64,000 nt of DNA. Source: a bacterium (GTDB lineage: Bacteria; Latescibacterota; Latescibacteria; Latescibacterales; Latescibacteraceae). A program made the position numbers and the translations under genes. The DNA is taken from assembly GCA_021372535.1 (NCBI GenBank), contig JAJFUH010000089.1, positions 1 through 64,000 on the forward strand, read 5' to 3'. Below are positions 2,202 to 58,018 of the stretch, one piece after another. Each line of letters begins with the position of its first letter. Within the stretch, counting starts at the first letter, position 1. The notes below the pieces were generated by a model that saw only the letters and a list, made by a program, of their open reading frames with translations, did no database searches and was not told the origin of the DNA.

Positions 2202-3140
2202 TCAAAGAGCAAACTGTATGGTTACTCCCAGAGGATTTTCGCGGGGATTCATGAGCCATGTGGTAGTCATGGAAACAACATTGTACCAGAAATGAGCCGC
2301 GATGGCTTTATCGAGACGGTACCGGTCATGCTGGACACTATAACCGAAGGCGAAACCCGCTGCGGTTGCCTGGGTGACGAAGTACAGCGGCCGGTCGATA
2401 TCCTGGTTGAACAGGTGCAGACTCCCGAAAACCACCGATGAGACGATGAGCCCTGTTCGTTTCCCGTAACGGTAATCGAGCGATGGCAGAAGTATTCCCC
2501 TGAAGAGCATCTCTTCCGAAAGCGCCGCGCCCATGCTGAGGCCGACCGCCGATGTTTCATACCAGAATGTGCCCCTGCCGCGACTCATGCCGGCACCGTA
2601 CATGCGGACTCTTTTCATGTCCCGCCATGACTCCGTGTGGTGGGGATATGCCACGATACCATCGATGACACCGAGCGCCGCCATTGTCAGTACGAACGGT
2701 GAAAAGGCAACGCCGGGCCTGAACGGTGCTGTCACGAGCGATATCAGGGGTGTCGTGTCAGGCAGCGCACCGCGGTTTCCATGGTTCCCTTTCCGTAATA
2801 ATTCAGCCAGCTGCTCACGCGAATACTCACATTTATCGATAGTGTATAGTTGACCAGCTATGAGCAAAGGAACATTCAGCTCCGATACCGTCCTGTCATG
2901 AGCCGCAAAGCCCGCACCGAGCAGCGACAGCTCTGCGGTGAGAAACAGCACTCCTTTTGCGGTATCCCCATGATAAAAATGTGTTCCGCCGGGCAGGAAC
3001 TCCAGAACGAGTGGCACATGTTCCGCGCTGCGGGATGATGATGTATCGTCGCTCAGGCAGATATCGGAAAGTGTACAGTAAAGCACTATTCCTGACAACA
3101 CAACCACAGTGATTATTTTTGAATTCAGCGGATTTTTCAT
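2202..3140 (-). CDS. CPBP-family intramembrane metalloprotease with N-terminal extension
   Basis: The C-terminal half carries the CPBP/Abi (Rce1-like) catalytic motifs: the EEMLFRG glutamate pair and arginine near residue 200, then FGSLHLFNQ and HFWYN histidines in later membrane helices. This family cleaves or processes membrane-associated substrates. The N-terminal ~130 residues contain a signal peptide and LEFLPGGTHFYHGDTAKG, which resembles the DUF5683-type membrane domain often seen in FCB-group proteins (inference from the pattern). The length of 312 aa is longer than a minimal CPBP protein. It is transcribed toward pcm and ends 155 bp before the pcm start. Its substrate is unknown. Confidence 0.8.
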   Translation of the reverse strand: MKNPLNSKIITVVVLSGIVLYCTLSDICLSDDTSSSRSAEHVPLVLEFLPGGTHFYHGDTAKGVLFLTAELSLLGAGFAAHDRTVSELNVPLLIAGQLYTIDKCEYSREQLAELLRKGNHGNRGALPDTTPLISLVTAPFRPGVAFSPFVLTMAALGVIDGIVAYPHHTESWRDMKRVRMYGAGMSRGRGTFWYETSAVGLSMGAALSEEMLFRGILLPSLDYRYGKRTGLIVSSVVFGSLHLFNQDIDRPLYFVTQATAAGFAFGYSVQHDRYRLDKAIAAHFWYNVVSMTTTWLMNPRENPLGVTIQFAL

Positions 3141-3391: not shown

Positions 3392-5347
3392 ATGGGTAAA
3401 ACAGGCTGGAGTTTAATAGCGGGATTCATGTGCTGTCTGGTTCTGGCTGCCGGAGGGGATAAACTTATGGCTCAACAGTCAACGGGTGTGACCGCAGCTC
3501 TCGAAATTGTTCCGCAGCCGGTGAAGGTCGTTCCGGGCAAAGGCTTGTTTGCCCTGAAGCCATCGACCGTAATCGCCATCACGGACGATACCGTCGAATT
3601 GATGAGCCTGGGACGATATCTTTCAGACCAGATAAGGCTTCTCACCGAGTATACCCTCGAAGTGCGCCGGACATCGGGCGCCGCAGTAGCCCCGGGCACG
3701 ATAGTCCTGACGACACAGGGAGCCGACAGAACACTCGGCGATGAGGGATACTCCCTGAAGGTTTCTTGGGAATCCGTCATAATTTCGGCGCAGAAACCCG
3801 CCGGTGTTTTTTATGGCATTCAGACGTTCAGGCAGATGATCATGTCCGGCGACGACAGCTGGAGATTCTCGCGTTCCATTCCCGCTGTCGAAATTTCGGA
3901 CAAACCATCGTATACATGGCGCGGATTTCAGCTCGACTGTTCCCGTCATTTCATGAGCCTCGACTTTGTGAAGCGGTATATCGATCTTCTCGCATACCAC
4001 AAGATGAATGTCTTCCACTGGCACCTGACCGATGACCAGGGCTGGCGTATCGAAATAAAGCGCTATCCCGAGCTTACGAGGGCCGGGGCGTTTTATGGCG
4101 ACGGCGATAACCGTCACGGCGGATACTATACGCAGGATGAAGCCCGCGAGATCGTGGCATATGCGAAGAGCCGCTACATAACCGTTGTCCCGGAAATCGA
4201 GATGCCGGGGCATGCCACCGCGGCGATTGCGGCTTATCCGGAGCTTTCCTGCGCCGGGAAGCCCCTCAAGGTGGAGTCGACCTGGGGTATTCACCCGAAC
4301 CTGTTCTGCGCCGGAAAGGAATCGACATTCGAGTTCATCGAAAATGTGCTCACGGAGCTCTGCGACATATTCCCGTCCCCCTATATTCATATCGGCGGCG
4401 ACGAGGCGGTGAAAGACCAGTGGAAAGCCTGCCCGCTCTGCCAGAAACGCATGAAGGAGCTGGGACTCAAGAACGAGAATGAGCTTCAGGGCTATTTTAC
4501 CACCCGTATCGATACATTCGTGCAGACACTCAACCGTAACATCGTCGGCTGGGACGAAATCCTCGAGGGAGGCCCCTCGAAAACCGCCGTGGTTCAGTCG
4601 TGGCGCGGCATGGAAGGAGCGGTCGAGGGCGCGAAAAAGGGACATCGGGTGATCTCGTCCCCCGCGCCTTTCGTGTACCTTGATTTTCCGAATACCGAGG
4701 ACGGCACCAACGATACGGGCTGGCTCAAGGTCACCACTCTCGAAAAAGTGTATTCGTTCGAGCCGACCCCGGCCGAGCTGACTCCCGCGGAGGCTGCGCT
4801 CATTTTGGGCGGCGAATGCCCGCTGTGGACGGAGCGGGCGCCCCAGCCCGAAGTCGATCACATGGTGTTCCCGCGTCTGTGCGCCCTTGCGGAGGTGGTC
4901 TGGACGCCCCCGGAACGCAGGAACTGGGCCGATTTCTCGAGACGCATGGAGGTGCATTACCGGCGGCTCGACGCGCTCGGTGTGGATTATTTCACCCCGT
5001 ACACCCCGGTCGGTTCATGGGATCCGAAGGATATCGGGAATTCGTTCGCGACCCTTGACCGTGACATCACCGATGCGCTCAGGGAGCCCGGCCATTACCG
5101 TCTGGCGCTCCGTCACGATACCGGCGCGAACGGCGTGACGATCGAGTGGGCAGCCATCCTCGAAAACGGCCGTGAGATGGCGCGCGACACGCACGAGGGA
5201 GTGAGCGGAAAACGGCGGGCCGGTCACAATTACCGTTTCAGGGTGGATACAACCCGTCCCGGCGCCCGTTATACGCTCAGGGTGAGCCTCCGCGGGGACG
5301 GCGGAACCGACACGAAGGGAACACTGCTTTTGAGGCATTTTAAGTGA
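3392..5347 (+). CDS. Exported beta-N-acetylhexosaminidase, GH20
   Basis: Releases terminal N-acetylglucosamine or N-acetylgalactosamine from glycans or chitooligosaccharides by substrate-assisted catalysis. Residues 1-28 form a signal peptide. Residues ~30-150 are the GH20b domain. The catalytic barrel follows (RGFQLDCSRHFMS, HWHLTDDQGWRIEIK). The catalytic pair D337-E338 sits in HIGGDEA. Residues ~525-651 form a C-terminal domain ending LLRHFK. Length is 651 aa. A strong AGGAGG site precedes ATG 3392. The last 33 codons or so and the bases after the stop are duplicated at 6963-7061, and the natural terminator seems to have been displaced to 7057-7089 by an insertion. Confidence 0.95.
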   Translation: MGKTGWSLIAGFMCCLVLAAGGDKLMAQQSTGVTAALEIVPQPVKVVPGKGLFALKPSTVIAITDDTVELMSLGRYLSDQIRLLTEYTLEVRRTSGAAVAPGTIVLTTQGADRTLGDEGYSLKVSWESVIISAQKPAGVFYGIQTFRQMIMSGDDSWRFSRSIPAVEISDKPSYTWRGFQLDCSRHFMSLDFVKRYIDLLAYHKMNVFHWHLTDDQGWRIEIKRYPELTRAGAFYGDGDNRHGGYYTQDEAREIVAYAKSRYITVVPEIEMPGHATAAIAAYPELSCAGKPLKVESTWGIHPNLFCAGKESTFEFIENVLTELCDIFPSPYIHIGGDEAVKDQWKACPLCQKRMKELGLKNENELQGYFTTRIDTFVQTLNRNIVGWDEILEGGPSKTAVVQSWRGMEGAVEGAKKGHRVISSPAPFVYLDFPNTEDGTNDTGWLKVTTLEKVYSFEPTPAELTPAEAALILGGECPLWTERAPQPEVDHMVFPRLCALAEVVWTPPERRNWADFSRRMEVHYRRLDALGVDYFTPYTPVGSWDPKDIGNSFATLDRDITDALREPGHYRLALRHDTGANGVTIEWAAILENGREMARDTHEGVSGKRRAGHNYRFRVDTTRPGARYTLRVSLRGDGGTDTKGTLLLRHFK

Positions 5348-5365
5348 GCGGGAAAGGAACGGGGG
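5267..5365 (+). repeat. GH20 3'-end direct repeat, copy 1 (in the intact gene)
   Basis: This 99-bp segment, covering the last 26 codons of the GH20 gene, its stop and 16 bp after it, matches 6963-7061 at 91 of 99 positions. Five of the eight differences lie in codons and four of those are silent. Similarity stops abruptly at 5366. Confidence 0.9.
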
Positions 5366-5837
5366 GAAGGCATTGAAAAGTCATGAAAAATAATGTATTT
5401 GATGGATAGAGATATGGTGTGTTACCGTTATTTTATGTGGGCGATTTCACCGCATATAAAATGTGTTTGACTTGTTCATCAGATACTTATACTTTTCTAA
5501 AATACGATTTTTCCAATGATCATACCTTTCTTAAATCGAGGAGGTAAAGGTGTGATAAGTCCCGCAGATAATCTATAAGAAATAATGATTTATTTGGGAT
5601 TTTACTAATTGTATAAAATTCTTGCTAAATGAGTGATTATTAAAAAGATAACAAATTGATATTAATAATATTACACGTATTTTCCAGATTTTTCATTGGG
5701 GTCTTATAGAGGTCAAATAGTTTTATAGAGGTTCTTAGTATAGAAACTTTATAAATCCTGGTCAGTCCAGAAAAGAAAATGTAAGGTACTTTTCCCATGT
5801 TTAGGAATGTACAACTTAAGTGAAAGGTGGGAAAGGA
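5366..5837. other. Left part of the inserted segment, no gene seen
   Basis: AT-rich stretch between the end of the GH20 tail repeat and the DUF2752 gene. I see no protein-coding frame of note. There is a weak inverted repeat near 5432-5463 and two short copies of TTATAGAGGT around 5704-5735. It presumably carries the promoter of the small gene pair that follows. Confidence 0.5.
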
Positions 5838-6173
5838 ATGATCAAGTGGCCTGCAATCAAGAGGCTCTATCTATCACTCCAGCGAGTAATTTCTATTCGT
5901 AGGTTTGGATTCCCAGCTCTCGTTATCTACGGTATATCAGTTAATCCGATAAATGGAGATCGCGGAATTCCGTGCCTGTGGCGTTTAGTTTTCGGAATGG
6001 ACTGCCCATGTTGTGGACTGTCACGGGCTGATGCTCTTCTATTCAGGGGGCATTTCTTGGATGCAGTGAGAATGAACTGGCTCATTATCCCAGTAGTTCT
6101 AGTATTCTTTTACTATTTCACCGAAACTGTTGTAAACCAATACCACATGAGGAGGAAGTCATGGCTCAATTAG
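5838..6173 (+). CDS. DUF2752 small membrane protein
   Basis: The 111-aa protein has the DUF2752 signature: the cysteine-rich CPCCGLSRA segment near residue 60 followed by a membrane segment (NWLIIPVVLVFFYYF). An N-terminal hydrophobic segment is also present. The function of the family is not established. ATG 5838 is chosen because GGTGGGAAAGG lies just upstream; a GTG at 5820 is in frame but lacks a site. It overlaps the following TM2 gene by 13 bp, so the two are translated together. DUF2752 and TM2 genes commonly occur as neighbours. It lies within the segment inserted behind GH20. Confidence 0.75.
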   Translation: MIKWPAIKRLYLSLQRVISIRRFGFPALVIYGISVNPINGDRGIPCLWRLVFGMDCPCCGLSRADALLFRGHFLDAVRMNWLIIPVVLVFFYYFTETVVNQYHMRRKSWLN

Positions 6174-6466
6174 GTGCAGCAGAACTCGCGGCGTTGACAA
6201 AGGATCTTGATGACTCGAAGAAAATGATCTTTCAGTCGCAGTACTCCTCAGAGAAAAAGGACAGAGGCACTGCGATGATAGTGGCTCTGTTTAACTGGGA
6301 TCGCATCTGGTTTGGTGATACGGGCCTTGGAATTTTGAAGTTGCTCACTGTCGGGCTGTGTGGTATTTGGTGGCTGATCGACCTTTTCACGGCTGGATCG
6401 CGTTGTGACGATTACAACCGTGCAAAGGCAGAGGAAATAGTCGCATCTCTCAAACTGACAAAGTAG
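6161..6466 (+). CDS. TM2-domain membrane protein
   Basis: The core WDRIWFGDTGLGILKLLT followed by GLCGIWWLIDLF (residues ~47-75) is the TM2 domain: two membrane helices joined by a short turn, with a conserved acidic residue in the second helix. The 101-aa protein has a charged, probably cytoplasmic, N-terminal half. The function of bacterial TM2 proteins is unknown. GAGGAGG lies upstream of ATG 6161. It forms a translationally coupled pair with DUF2752. A GCCTAAC motif of the attC-core type sits 24 bp after its stop (6491-6497), without a matching partner nearby. Confidence 0.8.
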   Translation: MAQLGAAELAALTKDLDDSKKMIFQSQYSSEKKDRGTAMIVALFNWDRIWFGDTGLGILKLLTVGLCGIWWLIDLFTAGSRCDDYNRAKAEEIVASLKLTK

Positions 6467-6538
6467 TTAAGAAAGGCAGCACCGTAATTGGCCTAACAAA
6501 GTGAGTAAAGTGAGCGCAACGTTCGCTGGAGATAAGAA

Positions 6539-6955
6539 ATGGCGATTATGAATACTGACAGCATAATGACGCTATCTTCGAAACAACTTACTGGATTCTT
6601 TTTCGATTGGCCTTAGCATCTCAATGCCTGCACGCACATGGAGAATCTTTATTCCAGCTATTTGGAATTGCTGGTACTTGATGGAGATCGTTGTATGGTT
6701 CATCAATGCACTATCAGATGGGATTTTTTACGCGTATATCCCTCTCCTTGAAGTCCTATCCTAATACCATGGGCAGGGAATCGGCACGGAATTGGTTCGA
6801 CGCATGGTTGAGGGGCTCGGTGGTATGTATGCGATTGACATTGTGTGAGATGAGTACACTGCGCCCTTCATTCGGACAAAGAAACCAGCCAATGCGTGGG
6901 AATGGTCATGAGGAATTACGCCAACCATGGAGCAGCGAACAATCGCATGCAGTGG
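6539..6955 (+). pseudogene. Decayed GNAT N-acetyltransferase gene
   Basis: No single frame is open, but pieces in different frames join into a GNAT protein. From ATG 6539 (GGAGATA upstream) come MAIMNTDSIMTL and LTGFFFDWP, then a stop at 6614, then YLELLVLDGDRC. A shifted frame continues VVWFINALSDGIF and AYIPLLEVL, then a stop. Another frame gives the acetyl-CoA motif GQGIGTELVRRMVEGLG and MYAIDIV, then a stop and DEYTAPF. The end reads RNYANHGAANN. At least two frameshifts and three stops are visible. It is a remnant of an acetyltransferase that once lay between TM2 and the second GH20 tail. Confidence 0.75.
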
Positions 6956-6962
6956 ACTCGGG

Positions 6963-7061
6963 CGTTATACGCTCAGGGTGAGTCTCCGCGGGGACGGCGG
7001 AACCGACACGAAGGGAACCATGCTTTTAAGGCATTTCAAGTGAGTGGGTAGGGAACGGGGG
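6963..7061 (+). repeat. GH20 3'-end direct repeat, copy 2 (orphan tail)
   Basis: Encodes the same C-terminal 26 residues as the GH20 gene (one Leu-to-Met change), its stop and the bases after it, but with no gene body in front. Differences from copy 1 are mostly silent third positions, so both copies diverged while coding. It runs directly into a rho-independent terminator, suggesting that this is the original end of the locus. Confidence 0.9.
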
Positions 7062-7089
7062 TGTGCGGGAAAGACACCCCCCATTTTTT
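7057..7089 (+). terminator. Rho-independent terminator, probably the original GH20 terminator
   Basis: GGGGGTGT (7057-7064) pairs with ACACCCCC (7074-7081) and is followed by six T. The first five G are shared with copy 1 of the GH20 tail, where the rest of the hairpin is missing. Confidence 0.8.
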
Positions 7090-7095
7090 ATTTAC

Positions 7096-7124
7096 TTGAC
7101 AAAATCATATTTTAGCAATATATA
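7096..7124 (+). promoter_or_regulatory. Strong sigma-70 promoter candidate
   Basis: TTGACA at 7096-7101, a 17-bp spacer and TATATA at 7119-7124. It lies just after the terminator and about 200 bp upstream of the HNH gene, which it could drive. Confidence 0.5.
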
Positions 7125-7329
7125 TGCAGATATTTATACATGCTCATTTCTCATATTCTCAATTGTGGTGGGCATAGTAAACATAAATAAATATTCACGG
7201 TATTATGAATCTCTCTATAGAATAAAGCATTCAGGATAACGTGGCATTTCGTCATATTTCATTTTAGTAGTACAGGGGTATTATCATAACTATAAAACAA
7301 TAGTTGGTTCGCAAACATTGGAGTCCTAG

Positions 7330-7971
7330 TTGAGTACCTTCGAGTGCGCATACTGCGGCCAGTTTAAAGCTGCGACCGACGACCACGTCCCGCCAAAGAG
7401 TATATTTAAGGATCCCAAGCCATTGGAATTGCCAACCGTGAAGTCCTGCGCACAGTGCAACCAAGGCGCTTCAGACGATGACGAGTATTTTCGCGATACC
7501 GTCGTCAAGTACTATGCAGTAGCAGACAAACCTCAAGCGAAGGATCAACTTGCAGCAATGTATAGGGCGGCGACAAAATCTAAGAAGCGCAAATACGCCG
7601 AGAGAACGCTAAGCTCCTTTTTTAAAATCGAAGTCATATCATCTGCCGGTATCTACCTTGGTACAGTTCCAGCCTACAGGATTGATACAGTGAGGTTCAA
7701 TAGAGTAGTAATACGCTACATCAAAGGCCTTTACCGATATGACACTGGTACCCGGCTGCCTGATGATCGACACATTGAAGTAATCAGTGATCCTGATACT
7801 ATACACCAGAAGAGGCAACAGGTTGAGCAACTCTTGGCAGGCTCGGAGAGCAAGAATATTCAAGAAGGGGTCTTCTGGTATGCGTGGGGCCAGGCAGTAG
7901 ACAACCCCGCTGCTTCCTTTTGGCTGCTCGTATTCTATGATGCCTTTCCAATCATTGCGGTCATTAACTAA
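7330..7971 (+). CDS. HNH-endonuclease-like protein
   Basis: The N-terminal ~60 residues carry the pattern CAYCGQ, DDHVPPKSIF, CAQCNQGAS, DDDEYF: two CxxC knuckles around an H-x-P core, as in HNH nucleases that bind a structural zinc and cut DNA. The remaining ~150 residues have no recognised domain. TTG 7330 is taken as the start because GGAG lies 6 nt upstream and the protein begins directly with the zinc knuckle. Length 213 aa. It is AT-richer than the core genes. Its stop is followed 28 bp later by an attC-like inverted repeat. A role in defence or mobility is possible but is not shown. Confidence 0.65.
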   Translation: MSTFECAYCGQFKAATDDHVPPKSIFKDPKPLELPTVKSCAQCNQGASDDDEYFRDTVVKYYAVADKPQAKDQLAAMYRAATKSKKRKYAERTLSSFFKIEVISSAGIYLGTVPAYRIDTVRFNRVVIRYIKGLYRYDTGTRLPDDRHIEVISDPDTIHQKRQQVEQLLAGSESKNIQEGVFWYAWGQAVDNPAASFWLLVFYDAFPIIAVIN

Positions 7972-7999
7972 CTACTGTGATCACTTTTCACATATCACG

Positions 8000-8095
8000 G
8001 CCTAACAATCACTTTGAATGGCCGAACTCGCTAAATCCTTCAATCAGGCTGGTATATGATAAGTTCGTTCACCACTCAAGCGCACACCGTTAGTC
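8000..8095 (+). other. attC-like recombination site candidate
   Basis: GCCTAAC (8000-8006) fits the R'' consensus RYYYAAC exactly. GTTAGTC (8089-8095) fits the R' consensus GTTRRRY with one mismatch and pairs with R'' at 6 of 7 bases. Six bases inward, TTTGAATGG pairs with CCACTCAAG at 7 of 9 bases, as L''/L' boxes do. The total span of 96 bp lies within the range of integron attC sites. It stands between two unrelated plus-strand genes, as in cassette arrays. Confidence 0.5.
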
Positions 8096-8151
8096 GCTGA
8101 ATTGAATAAAGAGATGCTTAGCCCACAAATGATTTGAGAAATGAGAGAATA

Positions 8152-9381
8152 GTGAAAACCAAATATATCTTCATCGTGGCAATTCTAATATTCATGGCAA
8201 TTGCATTCGAATACTACGTTATCGTCTCACCTCTCGGATCAGATACTCGAATTGGCAATGCTATTCAAAGTGCCGCTGTCTTTGTCGCATTATTAGCTGC
8301 TACTATAGCCCTGTCGGCTGCGGATCCAAAGGCCCAAAAAGTTAAAGTTAAAATTGAACAGAACATTGATCCAAATAACATTGGCTTTTACTATAAAAGC
8401 GAGTTACCCAACGACCTACAAACCAAATATGAGGGCTTTCCATATCCAATTAAATCACATAAAGTTCATTTTAAGATTACGAACACCTCGGGATTTACTT
8501 TAAAGAAACCCACTTTGACGTTTAGGCTTCCTCTTGAGAAACAACACCCGCAAAAGGTTGGCGAAAAATATGTCTTATCTTTCAATTCAAATCTATTCAA
8601 TTCACAAACTGAACTTCGATTGCTTGAATTTGCCGACACCCTGCTCCTCTCCAATTCCAATCTGCCGTTTTGGAACAACGATGACAATATCACTATTTGG
8701 ATCAGAATGCTACTTAATGATGGGAAATTTGAACCATTTATGGTAGATGTATCAGTCAACTGTGAGAATGCTGAAGGAGTTACAAAACTAGTACGGATAG
8801 ATCCAAAACATTTCTACAGATTGGAGGATAGAATGGTCGATGCGGAATCAATTACACAACAGCCTGACGAGACTACAATCGAGCATGCTCGTGTCGGCTA
8901 TCAAGTAGCAGTGAGTCTTTGGACCTCCGAAAGCGAACAGACCTGGGCTCGCTTCAACGTAATGATTGTTGCAAACAGCATTATTCTTGCCATCATTGGA
9001 TTGGTTGTGACAAGCGAACATGCTATGCTCTCAATATCATTTGTCATGTCTATAGTTGGTATTATTATGTGTATAATGTGGTTATTTATCACGAAACGCG
9101 GTTTCGATTATCAAGACTACTACGTAAATTCTGCACGGGAATTGGAAGAACGGTTTCTCCGCCATGTAATAAAGACAGCCTCAAGGGGTAGCATCTTTGC
9201 AGACGGGCAGTCTGTCACATTCGAGTTAGATGGTAAAACGACAAAATTTCAGATGAGCAGGTGTTCGCGTATAGCACGTGCAAGGTTTATATCTATCGTC
9301 GTTATTTTCTTGTTTATCATTGTGTATGTGCTTGCATTGTTACAATCAATTTGGATTTATTTAACAGTATGTTATAAGTAA
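8152..9381 (+). CDS. Uncharacterised membrane protein with extracytoplasmic and cytoplasmic domains
   Basis: Not a family I can name. Two membrane helices near the N-terminus (residues ~4-21 and ~35-55) are followed by a beta-rich soluble stretch of about 180 residues. Then come a paired helical hairpin (NSIILAIIGLVV and FVMSIVGIIMCIMWLFI), an amphipathic helix (YYVNSARELEERFL) and a final C-terminal helix (~residues 380-400). GTG 8152 has GAGAG upstream and starts directly at the first helix; TTG 8134 is an in-frame alternative adding six residues. The gene is distinctly AT-rich, which suggests foreign origin. It sits between two inverted-repeat structures in the cassette-like block. Confidence 0.6.
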   Translation: MKTKYIFIVAILIFMAIAFEYYVIVSPLGSDTRIGNAIQSAAVFVALLAATIALSAADPKAQKVKVKIEQNIDPNNIGFYYKSELPNDLQTKYEGFPYPIKSHKVHFKITNTSGFTLKKPTLTFRLPLEKQHPQKVGEKYVLSFNSNLFNSQTELRLLEFADTLLLSNSNLPFWNNDDNITIWIRMLLNDGKFEPFMVDVSVNCENAEGVTKLVRIDPKHFYRLEDRMVDAESITQQPDETTIEHARVGYQVAVSLWTSESEQTWARFNVMIVANSIILAIIGLVVTSEHAMLSISFVMSIVGIIMCIMWLFITKRGFDYQDYYVNSARELEERFLRHVIKTASRGSIFADGQSVTFELDGKTTKFQMSRCSRIARARFISIVVIFLFIIVYVLALLQSIWIYLTVCYK

Positions 9382-9416
9382 TACCAATATTCATGTTATC
9401 AATCCATGGTTGGTGG

Positions 9417-9480
9417 CTAAAACCAAGTTACAACCGACGCGCTCCGCGTACGGCTGAACGTGGCCGTTTGGTTTCCTGCT
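9417..9480 (+). other. Imperfect inverted repeat after the membrane-protein gene
   Basis: GGCTAAAACCAA pairs imperfectly with TTGGTTTCCTGC, and GTTACAACCG with CGGCTGAAC, around a GC-rich centre (CGCGCTCCGCG). It occupies the same post-gene position as the attC-like site at 8000-8095, but the core boxes do not fit the attC consensus. It could be a degenerate site or just a structured spacer. Confidence 0.3.
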
Positions 9481-9523
9481 GTCATGGGAAAAATCATAAA
9501 CTGAGAAAGATGGAACGCGTACA

Positions 9524-10204
9524 ATGAATGTGCGTGATTTTTGTGAAAAAGAACGAGTAGCACTCCGGGACGAGTTGCACAACCTGAAAAGCTGCCAGAT
9601 TACCTTTCTTGCTTCGTCCATCACTGCAACCGGTGCGATACTTGGTCTCGCAACCACTCTAATTCAAACCACGTTTCTGGGAGTCGTTTTCTTGCTCCCT
9701 CTTATTGTGTTGCTTCCCTCATGGTGGGTATTCTTTGACAAGGCAACAACCATCACTCGCATTGTTGGGTATTATAGAATTCTGGAGAAAGTAATCCTCG
9801 GACATTATAAGGCAAACAACTTCATGGGCTGGGAAAATGCACTTTGCGAATTCAGGAGCAGACAGCAAGCTGGTACACTTGCCTTTCCTAAAAAGCAGTT
9901 GGAAAATCCTTGGCCTCATGGATTGTGTAATATGCTTCTGCTACGTACCTCTCACCCATACTGGATTATTTCCTACTTAACTTTCTTTACTATATCGAGT
10001 ATGTGTATAGTGACCAGTACTATAATTCTTAAAGGCGTCTGGCGTTTAGTAATATCTATACCAGTCATTCTTTTTTTGATGTCGGTATGGCGGAATTTGC
10101 GGACCGTGTGGAATCTAATCGAAGGGCAGAATTCATACGACTGTAACGAACACTTTTGGAAACAAATTCTTATACTGAAACCTATTGTGAATTCTATAGA
10201 GTAA
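9524..10204 (+). CDS. Uncharacterised four-helix membrane protein
   Basis: The 226-aa protein has two membrane hairpins: helices near residues 25-45 and 48-68, then near 145-168 and 172-190. A conserved-looking loop (WWVFFDKATTITRIVGYYRILEK) follows the first pair. I know this pattern only from unannotated accessory proteins and cannot assign a function. It follows the preceding membrane-protein gene by ~140 bp and shares its low GC. It is the last gene of the accessory block and is followed within 30 bp by a large palindromic repeat with a T-run. Confidence 0.6.
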   Translation: MNVRDFCEKERVALRDELHNLKSCQITFLASSITATGAILGLATTLIQTTFLGVVFLLPLIVLLPSWWVFFDKATTITRIVGYYRILEKVILGHYKANNFMGWENALCEFRSRQQAGTLAFPKKQLENPWPHGLCNMLLLRTSHPYWIISYLTFFTISSMCIVTSTIILKGVWRLVISIPVILFLMSVWRNLRTVWNLIEGQNSYDCNEHFWKQILILKPIVNSIE

Positions 10205-10232
10205 CTTTCAACGTTCTCCACTTTCAAAACCT

Positions 10233-10307
10233 GACCCTCCTCGGCTTCGCCGTGTCCTCCCTATTAGGGAGGATGCCCGGAGGGCAGGAGGGTCCCTTCG
10301 TTTTTTT
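10233..10307 (+). terminator. Palindromic repeat element with T-run, probable terminator
   Basis: GACCCTCCT (10233-10241) pairs with AGGAGGGTC (10286-10294). Inside, CCTCCCTA pairs with TAGGGAGG. A run of T follows at 10301-10307. Part of the element (10271-10287) is identical to 35925-35941 in a second palindromic element, so it is a dispersed family member that probably terminates the accessory block. Confidence 0.65.
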
Positions 10308-10349
10308 ACCACAATCCGGTATAAAGATTCCCCGTTTTTAATCATGGTA

Positions 10350-10377
10350 ATCCTGTAAATCCTGTAAATCCCGGTTC
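10350..10377 (+). repeat. Short 9-bp tandem repeat
   Basis: AATCCTGTA occurs twice in direct succession and is followed by a third, altered unit (AATCCCGGT). It is intergenic and unrelated to any gene signal I can see. Confidence 0.5.
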
Positions 10378-10494
10378 AAGTCTTTTTCTCGGTATTTTCT
10401 GGCATTTTTCCCCGTCCTCGATGTATATTACCGTTGTATTACGTCCGTGACATAAATGTGCCCGTAACCATTATGTTCCATGAGGACTGCTGCC

Positions 10495-10977
10495 ATGATT
10501 GAACTGAGCGAAAAACAGATCGGCGAATATCATCACCGGAACTATACCGCGGTCGACGGGCTGTGGTTTATGAAGGTCGAGGAAAAGTACGGGTTCGATG
10601 CCGCGCTCGATGTTGACAACGAGGTCTGGAAGGTGCTTCCCAAGATTCAGGCGCGGATGCTGAAATCTTTCGGGAATGTGGGCGACGGGATCGATGCGCT
10701 CCGTGAGTGTCTCGAAACGAAGCTCCGGCTCGAGGGTTTCGAATTTCATACCAAAACCGGTAAAAACGGCGGTTTTTCAGTTATCATAGACGGCTGTCCC
10801 TGGCACAATACGATGGTGAAAGTCGGCCGTGAGAAATACTCTTCCCTGGTGGGAAACCGTATTTGCAGAACCGAATACACCACATTCGCGTATGAGTTCG
10901 ACAGCCGGATACAATTCGAGATGGAGACTCAGATCTGCTGCCGGGCGCGTCAGTGTATCCTCAACTTTTTCATGTGA
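10495..10977 (+). CDS. DUF6125-like protein
   Basis: Soluble 160-aa protein beginning MIELSEKQIGEYHHRNYTAVDGLWF with the acidic/aromatic pattern DGLWFMKVEEKYG, and late cysteines (CRTEY, CCRARQC). This resembles the DUF6125 group, related to L-2-amino-thiazoline-4-carboxylate hydrolase-like proteins, whose function is unknown. The DUF assignment is by memory of the N-terminal pattern. ATG 10495 is preferred over 10480 because GAGG stands 9 nt upstream. It stands alone upstream of rtcB, with a repeated spacer between. Confidence 0.6.
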   Translation: MIELSEKQIGEYHHRNYTAVDGLWFMKVEEKYGFDAALDVDNEVWKVLPKIQARMLKSFGNVGDGIDALRECLETKLRLEGFEFHTKTGKNGGFSVIIDGCPWHNTMVKVGREKYSSLVGNRICRTEYTTFAYEFDSRIQFEMETQICCRARQCILNFFM

Positions 10978-14616: not shown

Positions 14617-16133
14617 GGCCTGTCTTCTCCTTCCGCCGATTCGGCAGGTATAGAGAATATATTGAAGCTTCTCGCGGTATCCGGTTTTGTTAAAAGACTC
14701 ACGACCACTGTAATGGCGAGAGAAGCGACAAAAGCCCACCATGCTATGTAGAGAAACGGTTCCGGCGCGGTGAAAACCTCGCCCCGTACCCAGAAAAGGG
14801 TAACCGATGTCCCAACGCCGAGGATGAGCCCCGCCGATGCCCCGATACTGTTGGCCCGTTTCCAGAACAAACCGAGTGTTATTATCGCCAGAAGAGGCCC
14901 CTGAAAGAAACTGAATACGGTCTGAAAGTAACCGTAAATGGAGGGGAAACGGCCTGCTATCGGTGCAAGCAATACACCGATGACAATAAAAGTGGCAATG
15001 AAAATTTTCCCCACAATCATGTAGTGACGGTGCGAACGGTTACGTGCGAACAGGGACTGATAGATATCCTTCGTCCAGAGCGTGGCCGCGCTGTTGAGGT
15101 ATGAATCGATGCTCGACATGAGTGCAGCCAGAAAAGCCGCGAACACGAGGCCGGTCAGTCCTGGTGGAAGGATGTCGTGAACCATCGTCGGATAGATATC
15201 ATCACTCTTTTCGAGACCCGGGTAGAGGATTATTCCGGCAAGTCCGGGGCCTACGAGGATAAACGGTATGAACAGTTTCAGAAAAGCTCCCCAGAGGACA
15301 CTCTTTTTGGCTTCGTACTCGCTTCTGGCGCCGAGTGTGCGCTGAACGATCGCCTGGTTGCCGAGCCAGTAAGCGGGGGAAAGCACGAAGCTCAGCCCGA
15401 ACAGGATTCCGGCCCATCCGTACGGAGTCGGGCTGTCGATGGGAACCATCAGCTCGAAGTGGTGCGCATACCGTTCGCCCATCGAAGTCACCAGACCGAC
15501 CATTTCTCCCCATCCGCCGATTTTCACGTAGGCGATAATCAGGATTACAAAACTACCGGCGAACATGATTATGCATTGGATGACATCGGTGTATACGACT
15601 GCCGCGAGGCCGCCCATCAAAGTGTAAACACCGACAACACAGGCGATTACAAGAATTGAGACGTATATCGGCCAGCCCATGAGAATTAACATCGTTTTGG
15701 CCGCGGTATAGAGGAAAACACCAAGGAGAAACGACATGAAGAATCCGACAATAAGAGCGACAAACGTCCGGACAAACTGGTTGTACCGCCGCCCGAGAAA
15801 CTCAGGGATGGTAAATACCCCGGTGCGCCAGTAAAAAGGGATGAATACGAATGCGCCGACGATCATGGCCGGAATACAGCCGATCCATTCGAAGTTTGCC
15901 ATGGCAATCCCGTAAAGATACGCTGCACCGGCGACTCCCACAAAATCGAGCGCACTGATATCCGTAACAACCATCGACATCCCGATTGCCCACCAGGGGA
16001 GTTTCCTCCCGGCGAGAAAATAGTCGCGGTCGTCCTTGATGAAACGTCCCAGCCGTGTTCCCACCCAGACCATGCCGACGAGATACAGGATGACAATAAA
16101 AAGATCGATACCGGTCAGTTTTCCTATAGCCAT
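14613..16133 (-). CDS. Sodium:solute symporter (SSS family)
   Basis: A 506-aa polytopic protein with about 13-14 helices. SSS signatures are RDYFLAGRKLPWWAIGMSMVVTDISALDFVG in the first helices (shown in part: FLAGRKLPWWAIGMS), PEFLGRRYN, and the sodium-site region FAAFLAALMSSIDSYLNSAATL. It couples inward Na+ flux to uptake of a sugar, sialic acid, amino acid or similar solute; related SGLT-type members often take sugars. Neighbouring genes do not settle the substrate. It is translationally coupled to the small membrane protein that follows. Confidence 0.93.
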   Translation of the reverse strand: MAIGKLTGIDLFIVILYLVGMVWVGTRLGRFIKDDRDYFLAGRKLPWWAIGMSMVVTDISALDFVGVAGAAYLYGIAMANFEWIGCIPAMIVGAFVFIPFYWRTGVFTIPEFLGRRYNQFVRTFVALIVGFFMSFLLGVFLYTAAKTMLILMGWPIYVSILVIACVVGVYTLMGGLAAVVYTDVIQCIIMFAGSFVILIIAYVKIGGWGEMVGLVTSMGERYAHHFELMVPIDSPTPYGWAGILFGLSFVLSPAYWLGNQAIVQRTLGARSEYEAKKSVLWGAFLKLFIPFILVGPGLAGIILYPGLEKSDDIYPTMVHDILPPGLTGLVFAAFLAALMSSIDSYLNSAATLWTKDIYQSLFARNRSHRHYMIVGKIFIATFIVIGVLLAPIAGRFPSIYGYFQTVFSFFQGPLLAIITLGLFWKRANSIGASAGLILGVGTSVTLFWVRGEVFTAPEPFLYIAWWAFVASLAITVVVSLLTKPDTARSFNIFSIPAESAEGEDRP

Positions 16134-16183
16134 GTTTCAGTCCGTTGTAAGAAGGTGTGAATTGTATGATGTCCTCTGTGACG

Positions 16184-16753
16184 TTACCAGTCAGGGCCCT
16201 GAAGATCGATGTCTCCGGCCGGAAATTGTTCAATAGCGATCGGTATGGCCATGGCAATGCTTTTCGAATCAATCGGGACCGTCCGTCCCGAATCATCGCT
16301 CATGAACACTGCCGAATTCACTTTTTTCCAACCCATCCTGCCGTAAACCTTTGTTTCGAGCTCGGGACGGCAGAACAGGAGACCGGCCTCCAATCCCTGT
16401 CTGCATGATTCTTCCCTGGCGGTTTCCATGATGATGTTCGACAGCCCCATTTTACGCCAGGGTGGGCGTACGAACACTCCCTGGGGGCCGGCAACTCTGA
16501 CAGGAATCTTTGTCCCGCCGACCAAAACCTCACGTTCAACGATGGCGACATGCGCCGCCACAGTACCATCGGGGGAAAAAGCACAGACAATCCACGACGG
16601 TTCGGAATGCCATGCCCGCTGATGTGAGAAATGGTCGCTGTCTTTCGGATAACATTCCACAAGTCCGGCGCGGATCAGACTGTCGAGATCGGGAGAAACA
16701 GCGCTGTTCTGTATAATTTTTATCGTAATCCCGGTACTGTAGGTACGAGGCAT
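16184..16753 (-). CDS. GNAT-family N-acetyltransferase
   Basis: About 190 aa. The acetyl-CoA-binding segment VRVAGPQGVFVRPPWRKMGLSNIIMETA (core: FVRPPWRKMGLSNIIM) fits GNAT motif A, and WHSEPSWIVCAF and AGLLFCRPELETKVYGRMGW supply the preceding strand and motif B. The acceptor substrate is unknown. ATG 16753 has AAGGGA about 10 nt upstream and begins at MPRTYSTG; the in-frame start 16792 lacks a site. It follows the symporter gene's upstream side with a 50-bp gap on the same strand, so it may be the first gene of that transcript. Confidence 0.75.
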   Translation of the reverse strand: MPRTYSTGITIKIIQNSAVSPDLDSLIRAGLVECYPKDSDHFSHQRAWHSEPSWIVCAFSPDGTVAAHVAIVEREVLVGGTKIPVRVAGPQGVFVRPPWRKMGLSNIIMETAREESCRQGLEAGLLFCRPELETKVYGRMGWKKVNSAVFMSDDSGRTVPIDSKSIAMAIPIAIEQFPAGDIDLQGPDW

Positions 16754-19497: not shown

Positions 19498-20604
19498 TCA
19501 TTTCAATTTAATAGTGATATCCCGCGCTCTTGTCGATTCACGTTCCTGAATGACAATTGAATCGGCAATGTAGCTGACAGCCCCCGAGCCCTTGTAATCG
19601 GAAGGGATTTCCGTGATAAACGCCACATAGCTTTTAGTGATGGTCTGACCGGCGTCGCAGTATTCGTAAATCGGCCGTCCGAAGATTTTCTCTTTAGCGA
19701 GCATATCCCCGAAGGGCTTATGGAGGCCGGTTGTCCCGAACTCGAGGCCCCGCGCAGCCGGTTTGCCCTCCGGCGAATTACGCCAGATATTAAGCCAGGG
19801 ATACTCGGACAGCTTCCAGATATATCCGATCATGAGCCGTTTTCCCGGGTTGCACGCGGTTACCCAGCCGTAATCAAGGCTGTCGGCGAACACGAACGAG
19901 GTAACAGCGGGATTATGATCATCCGCCAGACGCCGTAAATCGACCAGTTTCCCCTTATAGGCGATTGCAGGCCAGTAGATGACCGGTTCCTCGGGATTTG
20001 GCCAGGGGCTTTCCTGCATGTATCCCCTGGATGCGTTACAGTCCACGAGTACCGATTCGTCGAGGAACGGAGGCGCGATACTCGGGTGCTGGACGATGTT
20101 GTAAACTCTTCCCAGTTTATTGACGTTGGTGATTTCCTCTTTTACCATGAGCACCGGCGCATTTTCGTAAAGGCTCAAAGTCCGTTTCAGGGTCATACCC
20201 CCCATCGGGAGCTCGCAGAGCATCACCGCAGTAATGGTATTGTCTGTTTTGCGGGGCTGCGAGAGCACTTTCCATTCCACCTGCGCGGCTTCGCCATGGA
20301 ACGGCATGCCGTTCTTGAATTCCTGATCGGATGGCTGGCCCCACCGGTCAAAGCAGATGAAATGACCCATGGTACGCGGTTTCAGGTCGCCTTTTTCGGG
20401 GTAGTTCCAGTTGAGTGGATTGAGACCCTGCTGTATGAGGTGGAAGTCAACAATCGACCCGCCGGCAATATCGACTCCCACAAAAGCGGCTTTTCCCTTG
20501 AGGGCGACCTGCTTTCTTCCCTCGATTCCGGTTTCGGACCAGCAAACCTGGACAGCAGTGATAAGCATGAAAACAATGAGCATAAGGGAACTGGGATTTT
20601 TCAT
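19498..20604 (-). CDS. Exported galactose-mutarotase-fold protein, paralogue 1
   Basis: Signal peptide at residues 1-23 (MKNPSSLMLIVFMLITAVQVCWS). The mature part has the look of an aldose-epimerase / DUF4432-type beta-sandwich: GHFICFDRWGQPSDQE, NGMPFHGEAAQVEW, MGGMTLKRTLSLYENAP, NIVQHPSIAPPFLDES and GLEFGTTGLHKPFGD. It probably binds or epimerises a sugar in the periplasm; the assignment is by fold-like motifs, not by a proven active site. GGAGGAGG precedes ATG 20604. It is very similar to the next gene upstream, showing a tandem duplication. Confidence 0.65.
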   Translation of the reverse strand: MKNPSSLMLIVFMLITAVQVCWSETGIEGRKQVALKGKAAFVGVDIAGGSIVDFHLIQQGLNPLNWNYPEKGDLKPRTMGHFICFDRWGQPSDQEFKNGMPFHGEAAQVEWKVLSQPRKTDNTITAVMLCELPMGGMTLKRTLSLYENAPVLMVKEEITNVNKLGRVYNIVQHPSIAPPFLDESVLVDCNASRGYMQESPWPNPEEPVIYWPAIAYKGKLVDLRRLADDHNPAVTSFVFADSLDYGWVTACNPGKRLMIGYIWKLSEYPWLNIWRNSPEGKPAARGLEFGTTGLHKPFGDMLAKEKIFGRPIYEYCDAGQTITKSYVAFITEIPSDYKGSGAVSYIADSIVIQERESTRARDITIKLK

Positions 20605-20887: not shown

Positions 20888-21997
20888 CTACCTCAGATTA
20901 ATGATGATATCCCTCGTTTCCGTCGATTCGCGCTCACGGATGACAATCGAATCAGCGGAATAACTGACAGCCTCCGCGCCTTTGTAACCGGCGGGAATTT
21001 CCGTGATAAAAGCCACGTAGCTCTTTGTGATGGTCTGGCCTGCATCACAGTACTCGAAGAGCGGGCGGTCGAGGATTTTTCCCTTGGCCATCATGTCGCC
21101 GACCTGCCTGTGCAGACCGGTTGTGCCGAATTCAAGCCCCCGGGCATCCGGTTTACCGCCGGCGCTGTTCCGCCATATATCGAGCCATGGATAATCCGAC
21201 AGTTTCCAGATATATCCGAGCATGAGCCGTTTCTCCGGATTGCATGCGGTAACCCAGCCGTAATCGAGGCTGTCGGCAAACACAAACGAAGCAACATCGG
21301 GATTATGATCACCGCCCAGGCGGCGAAAATCGACCAGACTGCCTTTATACGCGGTTGCCGGCCAGTAGATGACCGGTTCCTCGATATGTGGCCAGGGGCT
21401 ATCCTGAATAAAGCCTTTCCATGCATTGCAGTCGACAATCACCGATTCATCGAGGAACGGCGGCGCTATGCTCGGGTGCTGGACGATGTTATAGACTTTT
21501 CCCAGTTTATTTGTGTTGGTTATTTCTTCCTTCACCATGAGTACAGGGGCATTTTCACAAAGGCTCATGGTCCGTTTCAGGGTCATGCCGCCAATCGGGA
21601 GCTCACAGAGCATTACCGCATTGACTGCGTTGCCGGTTTTTTGCGGCCGGGAAAGGATTTTCCATTCAACCTGCGTTGCCTCTCCATGGAACGGCATGCC
21701 ATTTTTCAACTCCTGATCCGATGGCGGGCCCCAACGGTCGAAACAGATGAAATGGCCCATCATGCGCGGTTTCGTATCCCCTTTTTCCGGATAATTCCAA
21801 TGAAGCGGATTGAGCCCCTGTTTATTTAGGTGAAAATCAACGATCGATCCTCCCGCGATATCGACACTGACCGACGCGATGTTTCCATCGAGCACGATCT
21901 GCTTTCTGCCATCGAGTCCCGTTTCCGGCCAGCAGGGCAGAGCTGCCATGATCATTACCACAGCGATGCATATTGTCAAAAGACCGGATTTTTTCAT
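20888..21997 (-). CDS. Exported galactose-mutarotase-fold protein, paralogue 2
   Basis: Full-length paralogue of the 19498-20604 product, with most of the sequence identical (GHFICFDRWGPPSDQE, NGMPFHGEATQVEW, GLEFGTTGLHRQVGD). Signal peptide at residues 1-25 (MKKSGLLTICIAVVMIMAAL). 369 aa. ATG 21997 is chosen because GGAGG lies about 9 nt upstream; the in-frame codon at 22039 has none. The two copies most likely act on related sugars in the periplasm. The high similarity over the whole length indicates duplication within this lineage, and the spacer between them carries a dispersed repeat. Confidence 0.65.
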   Translation of the reverse strand: MKKSGLLTICIAVVMIMAALPCWPETGLDGRKQIVLDGNIASVSVDIAGGSIVDFHLNKQGLNPLHWNYPEKGDTKPRMMGHFICFDRWGPPSDQELKNGMPFHGEATQVEWKILSRPQKTGNAVNAVMLCELPIGGMTLKRTMSLCENAPVLMVKEEITNTNKLGKVYNIVQHPSIAPPFLDESVIVDCNAWKGFIQDSPWPHIEEPVIYWPATAYKGSLVDFRRLGGDHNPDVASFVFADSLDYGWVTACNPEKRLMLGYIWKLSDYPWLDIWRNSAGGKPDARGLEFGTTGLHRQVGDMMAKGKILDRPLFEYCDAGQTITKSYVAFITEIPAGYKGAEAVSYSADSIVIRERESTETRDIIINLR

Positions 21998-56434: not shown

Positions 56435-58018
56435 ATGTTCAAGGTGCTTATAAGCGACAATGTATCTCAGGAGTGTGTGCAGATACTCAAGTCAGCCGAG
56501 GGTATCGAGGTCGATTTCAATACAAAGCTTACTCCTGAAGAATTCAATAAAGTTATCGGTAATTATGATGCCCTCGTTGTACGAAGCGCAACTAAAGTCC
56601 GCGAGGATGCAATCGCAGCTGCAAAGAAACTCAAGGTTATCGGCCGCGCGGGCGCCGGTGTGGATAATATCGATGTCAAAAAAGCCACCGACGCCGGTAT
56701 CATTGTCATGAACACGCCCGGCGGGAACACCGTATCGACAGCCGAGCACACATTCAGCATGATTATGGCGCTGTCACGGTCTATTCCCCAGGCTGACCGC
56801 TCGGTCAAGGAAGGCAAGTGGGACCGTAAAAAATACATGGGCGTTGAGCTCAGGGGGAAAACCCTCGGAATCATCGGTCTCGGCAACATCGGCCGTGTTC
56901 TCGGCAAGCGGGCCTGCTGTTTCGAGATGAAGGTGATCGGGTATGATCCGTTCATCACGAAAGAAATCGCCCAGAGCTTCGGTATCGAGCTTGTAAACCT
57001 CGATGCCATCTGGGCTCGGGCGGATTACATCACGGTTCATACTCCGCTCAACGACAGCACCCGTCACGTCATCAATGCCGAGACGCTTGCCAAATGCAAG
57101 GATGGTGTGAGGATAATCAACTGCGCCCGCGGCGGTGTTGTCGATGAGGAAGCGCTTCTCAAGGCGATCGAGTCGGGAAAAGTCGCCGGCGCCGCCCTCG
57201 ATGTCTATGAAAAAGAGCCGCCCGAGCAGAGCCCGCTCGTGATGAATGAAAAAGTGGTCGCCACGCCCCATCTCGGTGCATCGACCACCGAGGCGCAGGA
57301 TATCGTCGCGGTGATGATAGCCGAACAGGTACGCAATTTTCTGCTGAACGGAGAAGTCATCAACGCGGTCAACATGCCCTCGATCTCGCCTGAAGTCTAT
57401 GAACAGATCAAGCCGTTCATCAATCTCGGCCAGAAGATGGGGGCTATCCTCGGAAAGCACGGTGTAGGCCAGCTCAAAAACATCACTATCACCTATTACG
57501 GCGATGTGCATAAATACAATACCTGGTCGGTGACCTCCTCGATTCTGGAGGGATTGTTTACTACAAGTTATTCCGAGGTTGTCAACATAATCAATGCGAT
57601 CAGCACCGCCGAAAAACTCGGAATCAAGATCAACGAAGTCAAGTCCTCGGAAGAGAAGGACTACAAGAACAGCATCGAAGTCGCTCTTTCGACGGATACC
57701 ATCGAGCTGAGTATTCTCGGGACGATTCTGGGAAAAAACAACCCTCGGATCGTCAATTTTCAGGGGTACGATCTCGATTTTGTCCCGGAAGGTCATCTCC
57801 TGTTCTGTGGTAACGAGGACCGTCCCGGAATCATCGGCAATATCGGCACTGTTCTCGGTAAAAAGGGTATCAATATTGCCCATATGACCTGGGCGCGCAA
57901 GAGCCCGTCCGGTGAAGCTATTGTCGTAGTGAGCACCGATGAGGAAATCGACAAGAAGGCTCTCGATGAGGTCAAGAAGATCAGCGGGATATCGTGGGCG
58001 ATGTGTGTCGATGTATGA
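56435..58018 (+). CDS. serA: D-3-phosphoglycerate dehydrogenase
   Basis: First step of serine synthesis: 3-phosphoglycerate to 3-phosphohydroxypyruvate with NAD. The 527-aa type has an N-terminal substrate domain (VLISDNVSQECVQILK), the NAD motif GIIGLGNIGRVLG near residue 145, the catalytic arginine, glutamate and histidine around INCARGGVVDEEAL and ATPHLGASTTEAQ, an intervening domain, and a C-terminal ACT domain (DRPGIIGNIGTVLGKKGINI, core RPGIIGNIGTVLGKKG) for serine feedback. GGGAG precedes ATG 56435. The aminotransferase upstream likely gives the next step. Confidence 0.97.
   Translation: MFKVLISDNVSQECVQILKSAEGIEVDFNTKLTPEEFNKVIGNYDALVVRSATKVREDAIAAAKKLKVIGRAGAGVDNIDVKKATDAGIIVMNTPGGNTVSTAEHTFSMIMALSRSIPQADRSVKEGKWDRKKYMGVELRGKTLGIIGLGNIGRVLGKRACCFEMKVIGYDPFITKEIAQSFGIELVNLDAIWARADYITVHTPLNDSTRHVINAETLAKCKDGVRIINCARGGVVDEEALLKAIESGKVAGAALDVYEKEPPEQSPLVMNEKVVATPHLGASTTEAQDIVAVMIAEQVRNFLLNGEVINAVNMPSISPEVYEQIKPFINLGQKMGAILGKHGVGQLKNITITYYGDVHKYNTWSVTSSILEGLFTTSYSEVVNIINAISTAEKLGIKINEVKSSEEKDYKNSIEVALSTDTIELSILGTILGKNNPRIVNFQGYDLDFVPEGHLLFCGNEDRPGIIGNIGTVLGKKGINIAHMTWARKSPSGEAIVVVSTDEEIDKKALDEVKKISGISWAMCVDV

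Follow-up and report, generated by a model that had tools for sequence, protein, structure and literature searches.

Based on the structure of one recombination site, on its gene context and on traces of the same system elsewhere in the genome, we consider it very likely that the A+T-rich block at about 5366-10230 of the window (the whole stretch of DNA analysed, which is the first 64 kb of the 65.7-kb contig C89) is what remains of an integron cassette array that now lacks its integrase. Within this block, 8000-8095 very probably is a genuine attC, the recombination site of integrons. The assembly (G000) comprises 5.35 Mb in 236 contigs and is 95.9% complete, and the pieces of the block have a GC content of 0.39-0.47, against 0.52-0.56 in the immediate flanks. 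The features of the block and of its left edge are the following:

5267..5365, + strand: 3' end of a hexosaminidase gene plus 18 bp, first copy, within the intact gene at 3392-5347
5820..6173, + strand: DUF2752 gene (Pfam E 1e-12)
6161..6466, + strand: TM2-domain gene (E 3.9e-8)
6491..6497, + strand: isolated R''-like GCCTAAC, 24 bp past the TM2 gene, a probable remnant
about 6540..6925, + strand: GNAT acetyltransferase pseudogene (PF00583, E 0.002 on one piece)
6938..6970, + strand: possible half attC, AACAATCGCATGCAGTGGAC (6938-6957) and then GTTATAC (6964-6970)
6963..7061, + strand: second copy of the hexosaminidase 3' end, 92% to 5267-5365
7330..7971, + strand: HNH_5-like gene (213 aa) of the cassette to which the 8000-8095 site belongs
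8000..8095, + cassette orientation: intact attC (R'' at 8000-8006, R' at 8089-8095)
8134..9381, + strand: 8xMP membrane protein gene, 415 aa (PF24838, E 9e-14), next in the row
9416..9472, + strand: degenerate attC behind the 8xMP gene (GCTAAAAC ... L boxes ... GTTTGGT)
9524..10204, + strand: gene of a 226-aa membrane protein of unassigned family, GC 0.42, which ends the A+T-rich block

An earlier, sequence-only reading had described these genes as small unknowns or a GNAT, which is right, except that the GNAT gene is a pseudogene, with its pieces spread over at least two frames and carrying stops. The 226-aa membrane protein at 9524-10204 has no Pfam match, and the HNH_5 match of the 213-aa protein (E 0.0014) lies under the cut-off of the Pfam search. 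Further along the window, positions 19508-20544 and 20898-21934 form a tandem duplication of about 1 kb, whose two copies are 79% identical.

The same reading had placed at 8000-8095 an exact R'' core, a near-exact R' core and paired L boxes over a span of 96 bp, between an HNH gene and a membrane-protein gene (here 7330-7971 and 8134-9381), and every one of these elements is seen there. The R'' core (GCCTAAC, 8000-8006) lies 28 bp beyond the HNH stop codon, on the same strand as the gene, the R' core (GTTAGTC, 8089-8095) has one mismatch to GTTRRRY, and the two cores are 6/7 complementary (compared with RYYYAAC and GTTRRRY). On the bottom strand, the L stem consists of five outer and seven inner pairs around one unpaired A, and the extrahelical base is exactly 8 nt from R'', a spacing shared by the class 1 and Vibrio attC sites used as references and by those of a gammaproteobacterial contig (L046) described below. 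Of attC sites in general, it is only the bottom strand, in its folded form, that the integrase recombines (PMC11023631). When folded as single-stranded DNA, the bottom strand reaches -8.9 kcal/mol with the R and L boxes paired, whereas the top strand reaches -4.8 kcal/mol with these boxes unpaired. Compared with shuffled sequences the fold energy of the site is not unusual (z -0.37); the total energy being ordinary, the evidence for the site is its geometry.

The site was also scored in two further ways. A descriptor scan (scoring the cores, the pairing of the R boxes and an L stem interrupted by a single bulged base) was run on both strands of about 1.19 Mb of the 5.35-Mb genome, and 8000-8095 obtained its top score (15.5), the runner-up (14.5) being of low complexity. 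Scores of at least 15.5 were reached in 2 of 40 dinucleotide shuffles of the 64-kb window, so that, judged by sequence alone, the chance of such a match is about 0.05 per window, and on that footing the site would be a likely, although not certain, attC. Additionally, two covariance models were used, one trained only on the arms of class 1 and Vibrio attC sites (R2, built here) and a narrower one derived from the full-length sites of the same groups (R1). R2 matches 8000-8095 with 16.6 bits (E 0.0068 in the 5.2-kb block at 5300-10500), with all R and L pairs standard and without mismatches, and this is the one covariance match within the block; genome-wide it ranks fourth (E 7), with ranks one and two held by two attC sites of contig C79. 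Both the covariance match and the bottom-strand fold, which the sequence-only reading had named as checks, came out in favour of the site. In the window, R1 did not find 8000-8095, and an unfiltered R2 search did not list it, in the latter case probably because the loop of the site is longer than the length bands allow. The plain attC sites of L046 likewise escape both models, which points to a low sensitivity for long-looped sites and makes the silence of R1 in the window uninformative.

What decides for an attC beyond these scores is the context, namely the cassette relative of the HNH gene and the neighbouring remnants. In a search of about 85,000 genomes, a single relative of the HNH protein was found (44% identity, residues 5-213). 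It lies on L046, a 3.6-kb contig from a gammaproteobacterial assembly, and there the match starts 38 bp past an attC site (1300-1416) and is followed by one more ORF and then by another attC site (2960-3075), the two sites being near-identical and about 116 bp long. The position of this relative between attC sites shows that the family of this HNH gene travels in the form of integron cassettes. In plasmid searches, the HNH protein gave only matches of 25-28%, and the 8xMP protein and the GNAT pieces gave nothing. The PADLOC matches of the HNH protein were set aside, being weak and limited to the HNH motif.

Regarding the neighbouring remnants, the region behind the 8xMP gene (9416-9472) has L boxes which resemble those of class 1 attC sites, with both cores damaged; it is recovered by profile only, and nowhere else in the 64 kb does a class-1-type attC profile match as well as here (9429-9471, E 0.031, nhmmer), the fold of 9390-9500 having a z of -1.88. 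On the other side of the HNH gene, the second GCCTAAC that had been pointed out 24 bp past TM2 is present (6491-6497), but the right half of an attC was not found within 160 bp of it. A long attC spanning 6491-6970, with a 400-nt loop that folds no better than shuffled sequences, was dropped because the GNAT pseudogene sits inside it. The GNAT pseudogene ends in a sequence resembling an attC left arm (6938-6957), and this stretch agrees in 17/20 bases with the left arm of an attC in the family genome G008 (L144), the comparison having been made post hoc. The half-site pattern is absent elsewhere in this genome and, when taken with TAAC, it is absent from viral contigs too.

Elsewhere in the genome, the search for further sites returned the two attC sites of C79 (49.6 and 18 bits with R2), which flank folD. 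The sequence-only reading would have fallen had there been neither a covariance-model match nor another such site in the genome, and both are present. The distant intI for which it had proposed to search turned up in part: a 66-residue fragment exists on C84, but an intact intI was not found, none scoring above the cut-off in the window or in the 5.35-Mb genome. The better intI matches of the genome either leave the IntI-specific insert unmatched or are this 66-residue fragment (C84:15280-15477), which belongs to the IntI-specific region, carries one stop, is 61% to the intact IntI of another genome of the same phylum (G057) and adjoins a YdeI/OmdA-type gene. Given the fragmented assembly, C79 and C84 could conceivably be binning errors. 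The folD gene on C79 (18511-19484; L049 10512-11485) is a housekeeping-type enzyme gene in cassette position, adjoined by a methyltransferase gene. On another contig (C6 of G000, 57958-58016; L131 1501-1559), a weak attC-like site (17.6 bits) lies between HepT-like and NTF2-like ORFs (both named by eye), and it is possibly another remnant.

The comparison with related genomes gives a similar picture. In the family of the window, attC matches occur in 4/4 genomes and intI fragments in three of these four, with an intact intI in none of the four examined, which gives the impression of a family that has kept its attC sites after losing the integrase. Both G008 and G006 have C-terminal intI fragments, and in G006 a contig with an attC also bears an intI that has lost its interior (residues about 4-52 joined to 270-329). 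This deleted intI (L163, G006:C684, 2562-2852), in which N- and C-terminal parts are joined, keeps an open frame of 118 aa, and the attC (5005-5059 of L163) is about 2.2 kb away. The single attC sites of G008 (8 sites on 8 contigs) were considered as a sign of dispersal, a reading we rejected because most of them are near contig ends. Intact intI is present in other families of the phylum. Among 64 genomes of the phylum, a strong intI match was found in 8 and an R2 match with E up to 0.01 in 9, with no overlap between the two sets, which may result from the low sensitivity of R2 and from fragmented assemblies. A template scan for attC on the IntI-bearing contigs of the phylum gave nothing useful.

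Two other readings of the block deserve consideration. According to one of them, which we regard as hardly probable, the attC-like site would be a chance inverted repeat or a worn terminator, and the row of genes an unrelated genomic island; the equally high scores in 2 of 40 shuffled windows and the ordinary fold energy are compatible with it, and genes for HNH and membrane proteins turn up commonly in islands of any sort. This reading has to face the facts that the only relative found of the HNH gene is an integron cassette, that the window's best class-1-type attC match comes behind the next gene (8xMP), that other attC sites and an intI fragment exist in the same genome, and that 8000-8095 comes first in 1.19 Mb. 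In the other reading the cluster is still live, with its cassettes moved in trans by an intact IntI encoded elsewhere (in the missing 4% of the genome or on another replicon). Here the structural integrity of 8000-8095 and the state of the assembly (95.9% complete, 236 contigs) leave some room, but intact IntI is absent both from the 5.35 Mb and from the three other family genomes, and the neighbouring attC sites and the GNAT gene have decayed, which makes this reading quite improbable.

The left edge of the block raises a separate problem. A 99-bp stretch, consisting of the final 81 bp of the hexosaminidase gene with 18 bp beyond it, is duplicated, with the similarity of the second copy beginning at CGTTATAC, a GTT core (GTTATAC), and with a terminator-like hairpin behind this copy (about 7062-7092). 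This is the pattern of an element which lands in the 3' end of a gene and restores the gene. Of the coding differences between the copies, 4/5 are at third codon positions, which suggests (the numbers being small) that both copies were once part of working genes, in different lineages. A close relative of the hexosaminidase was found in none of the other family genomes, and an empty site is for this reason not comparable. The left part of the block (5268-6963) could then have arrived without IntI, as an integrative element which targeted and restored the hexosaminidase 3' end, displacing the old end to 6963-7061, with the cassette remnants as passengers. The duplicated end that flanks the segment, with its mostly third-position differences, speaks for this, and so does contig C84, where the intI fragment likewise lies between a tRNA-Arg gene and a partial copy of its 3' end. 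Nevertheless, the 1.7 kb contain no recombinase gene, the genome is rich in short direct repeats (loosely counted, 119 pairs in 1.19 Mb), and such an element would account for the left edge and not for the attC sites; we consider it unlikely. On C84, the intI fragment and the YdeI/OmdA gene occupy 15089-16643 (L018) together with the tRNA-Arg gene (16567-16643, minus strand) and its partial copy (15096-15143, 48 bp, 92%), the arrangement that an element inserted at the tRNA would leave.

A more speculative possibility, rather improbable in our view, is that an integron integrase itself used GTTATAC in the 3' end of the hexosaminidase gene and inserted there a cassette carrying a replacement 3' end, leaving the host gene intact. 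If this were so, the cassette would do no harm where it landed, much as phages do none at tRNA genes, and the C84 intI fragment beside a duplicated tRNA-Arg end would be a second such case. Insertion of cassettes into genomes at attG sites has reportedly been described by Loot et al. in 2024, a study cited in PMC12901181 and PMC11023631. This route would account for cassettes lying away from attI, and the left-edge duplication does start at GTTATAC; the block differs from it in having a duplicated gene end, which, to our knowledge, is not part of the described attG reaction.

Returning to the decayed cassette array, which is the reading we prefer, each cassette would have consisted of a gene with its attC behind it. 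IntI would have bound an attC such as 8000-8095 by its folded bottom strand, cleaved R' at G^TT (for 8000-8095, with an expected crossover at 8089^8090) and recombined the attC with a second site, whereby the HNH cassette would have moved as a circle and the cassettes would have been placed in the row. The integrase would later have decayed to fragments in this lineage, so that the cassettes would now be fixed, while the attC sites and the GNAT gene would be eroding, with one complete attC left in the block, a site which might still be able to recombine. This order of decay is the one we infer from the remnants.

As to the name of the locus, the sequence-only reading, which had proposed a CALIN-like cluster or its relic, is supported, and no integrase lies nearby. 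IntegronFinder 2 by default requires at least two attC sites for a CALIN, a single one being possible at the user's choice (PMC9024848), and CALINs have been proposed to be degraded integrons (a proposal restated in the same paper). The block shares with them its attC sites, its genes in one direction and the lack of an intI nearby, but it has one intact attC and one degenerate one, and reaches the default of two only if 9416-9472 is counted. A single attC without integrase is termed a SALIN (PMC12690207), and the block is one if only intact sites are counted, integrase being absent, although its further, degenerate sites suggest a former array. The block thus stands at the border between CALIN and SALIN. 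Because the two-site rule brings it nearer to a single-attC element accompanied by degenerate sites, relic is the better of the two words, and the safest course is to call the block a "relic of a cassette array". From a complete integron it differs in having no intact intI. With the sedentary chromosomal integrons of the Vibrio type it shares the attC structure, cassette genes of unknown function and the presence of HNH and GNAT genes in the cargo (L041), but it lacks intI, its attC sites are few and dissimilar, one of its cassettes is a pseudogene, and attI was not found.

In all probability the locus preserves in fossil form, in a lineage that has received little study, a bacterial gene-capture system that is already known, and its kind is not new. 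Since the two attC models built here from class 1 and Vibrio sites miss even the array of L046, integrons of other lineages may be undercounted. The present block adds a lineage in which attC sites outlive the integrase, and it opens integron decay to comparison, in particular regarding what is lost first, how long attC sites last and how useful fixed cassettes are.
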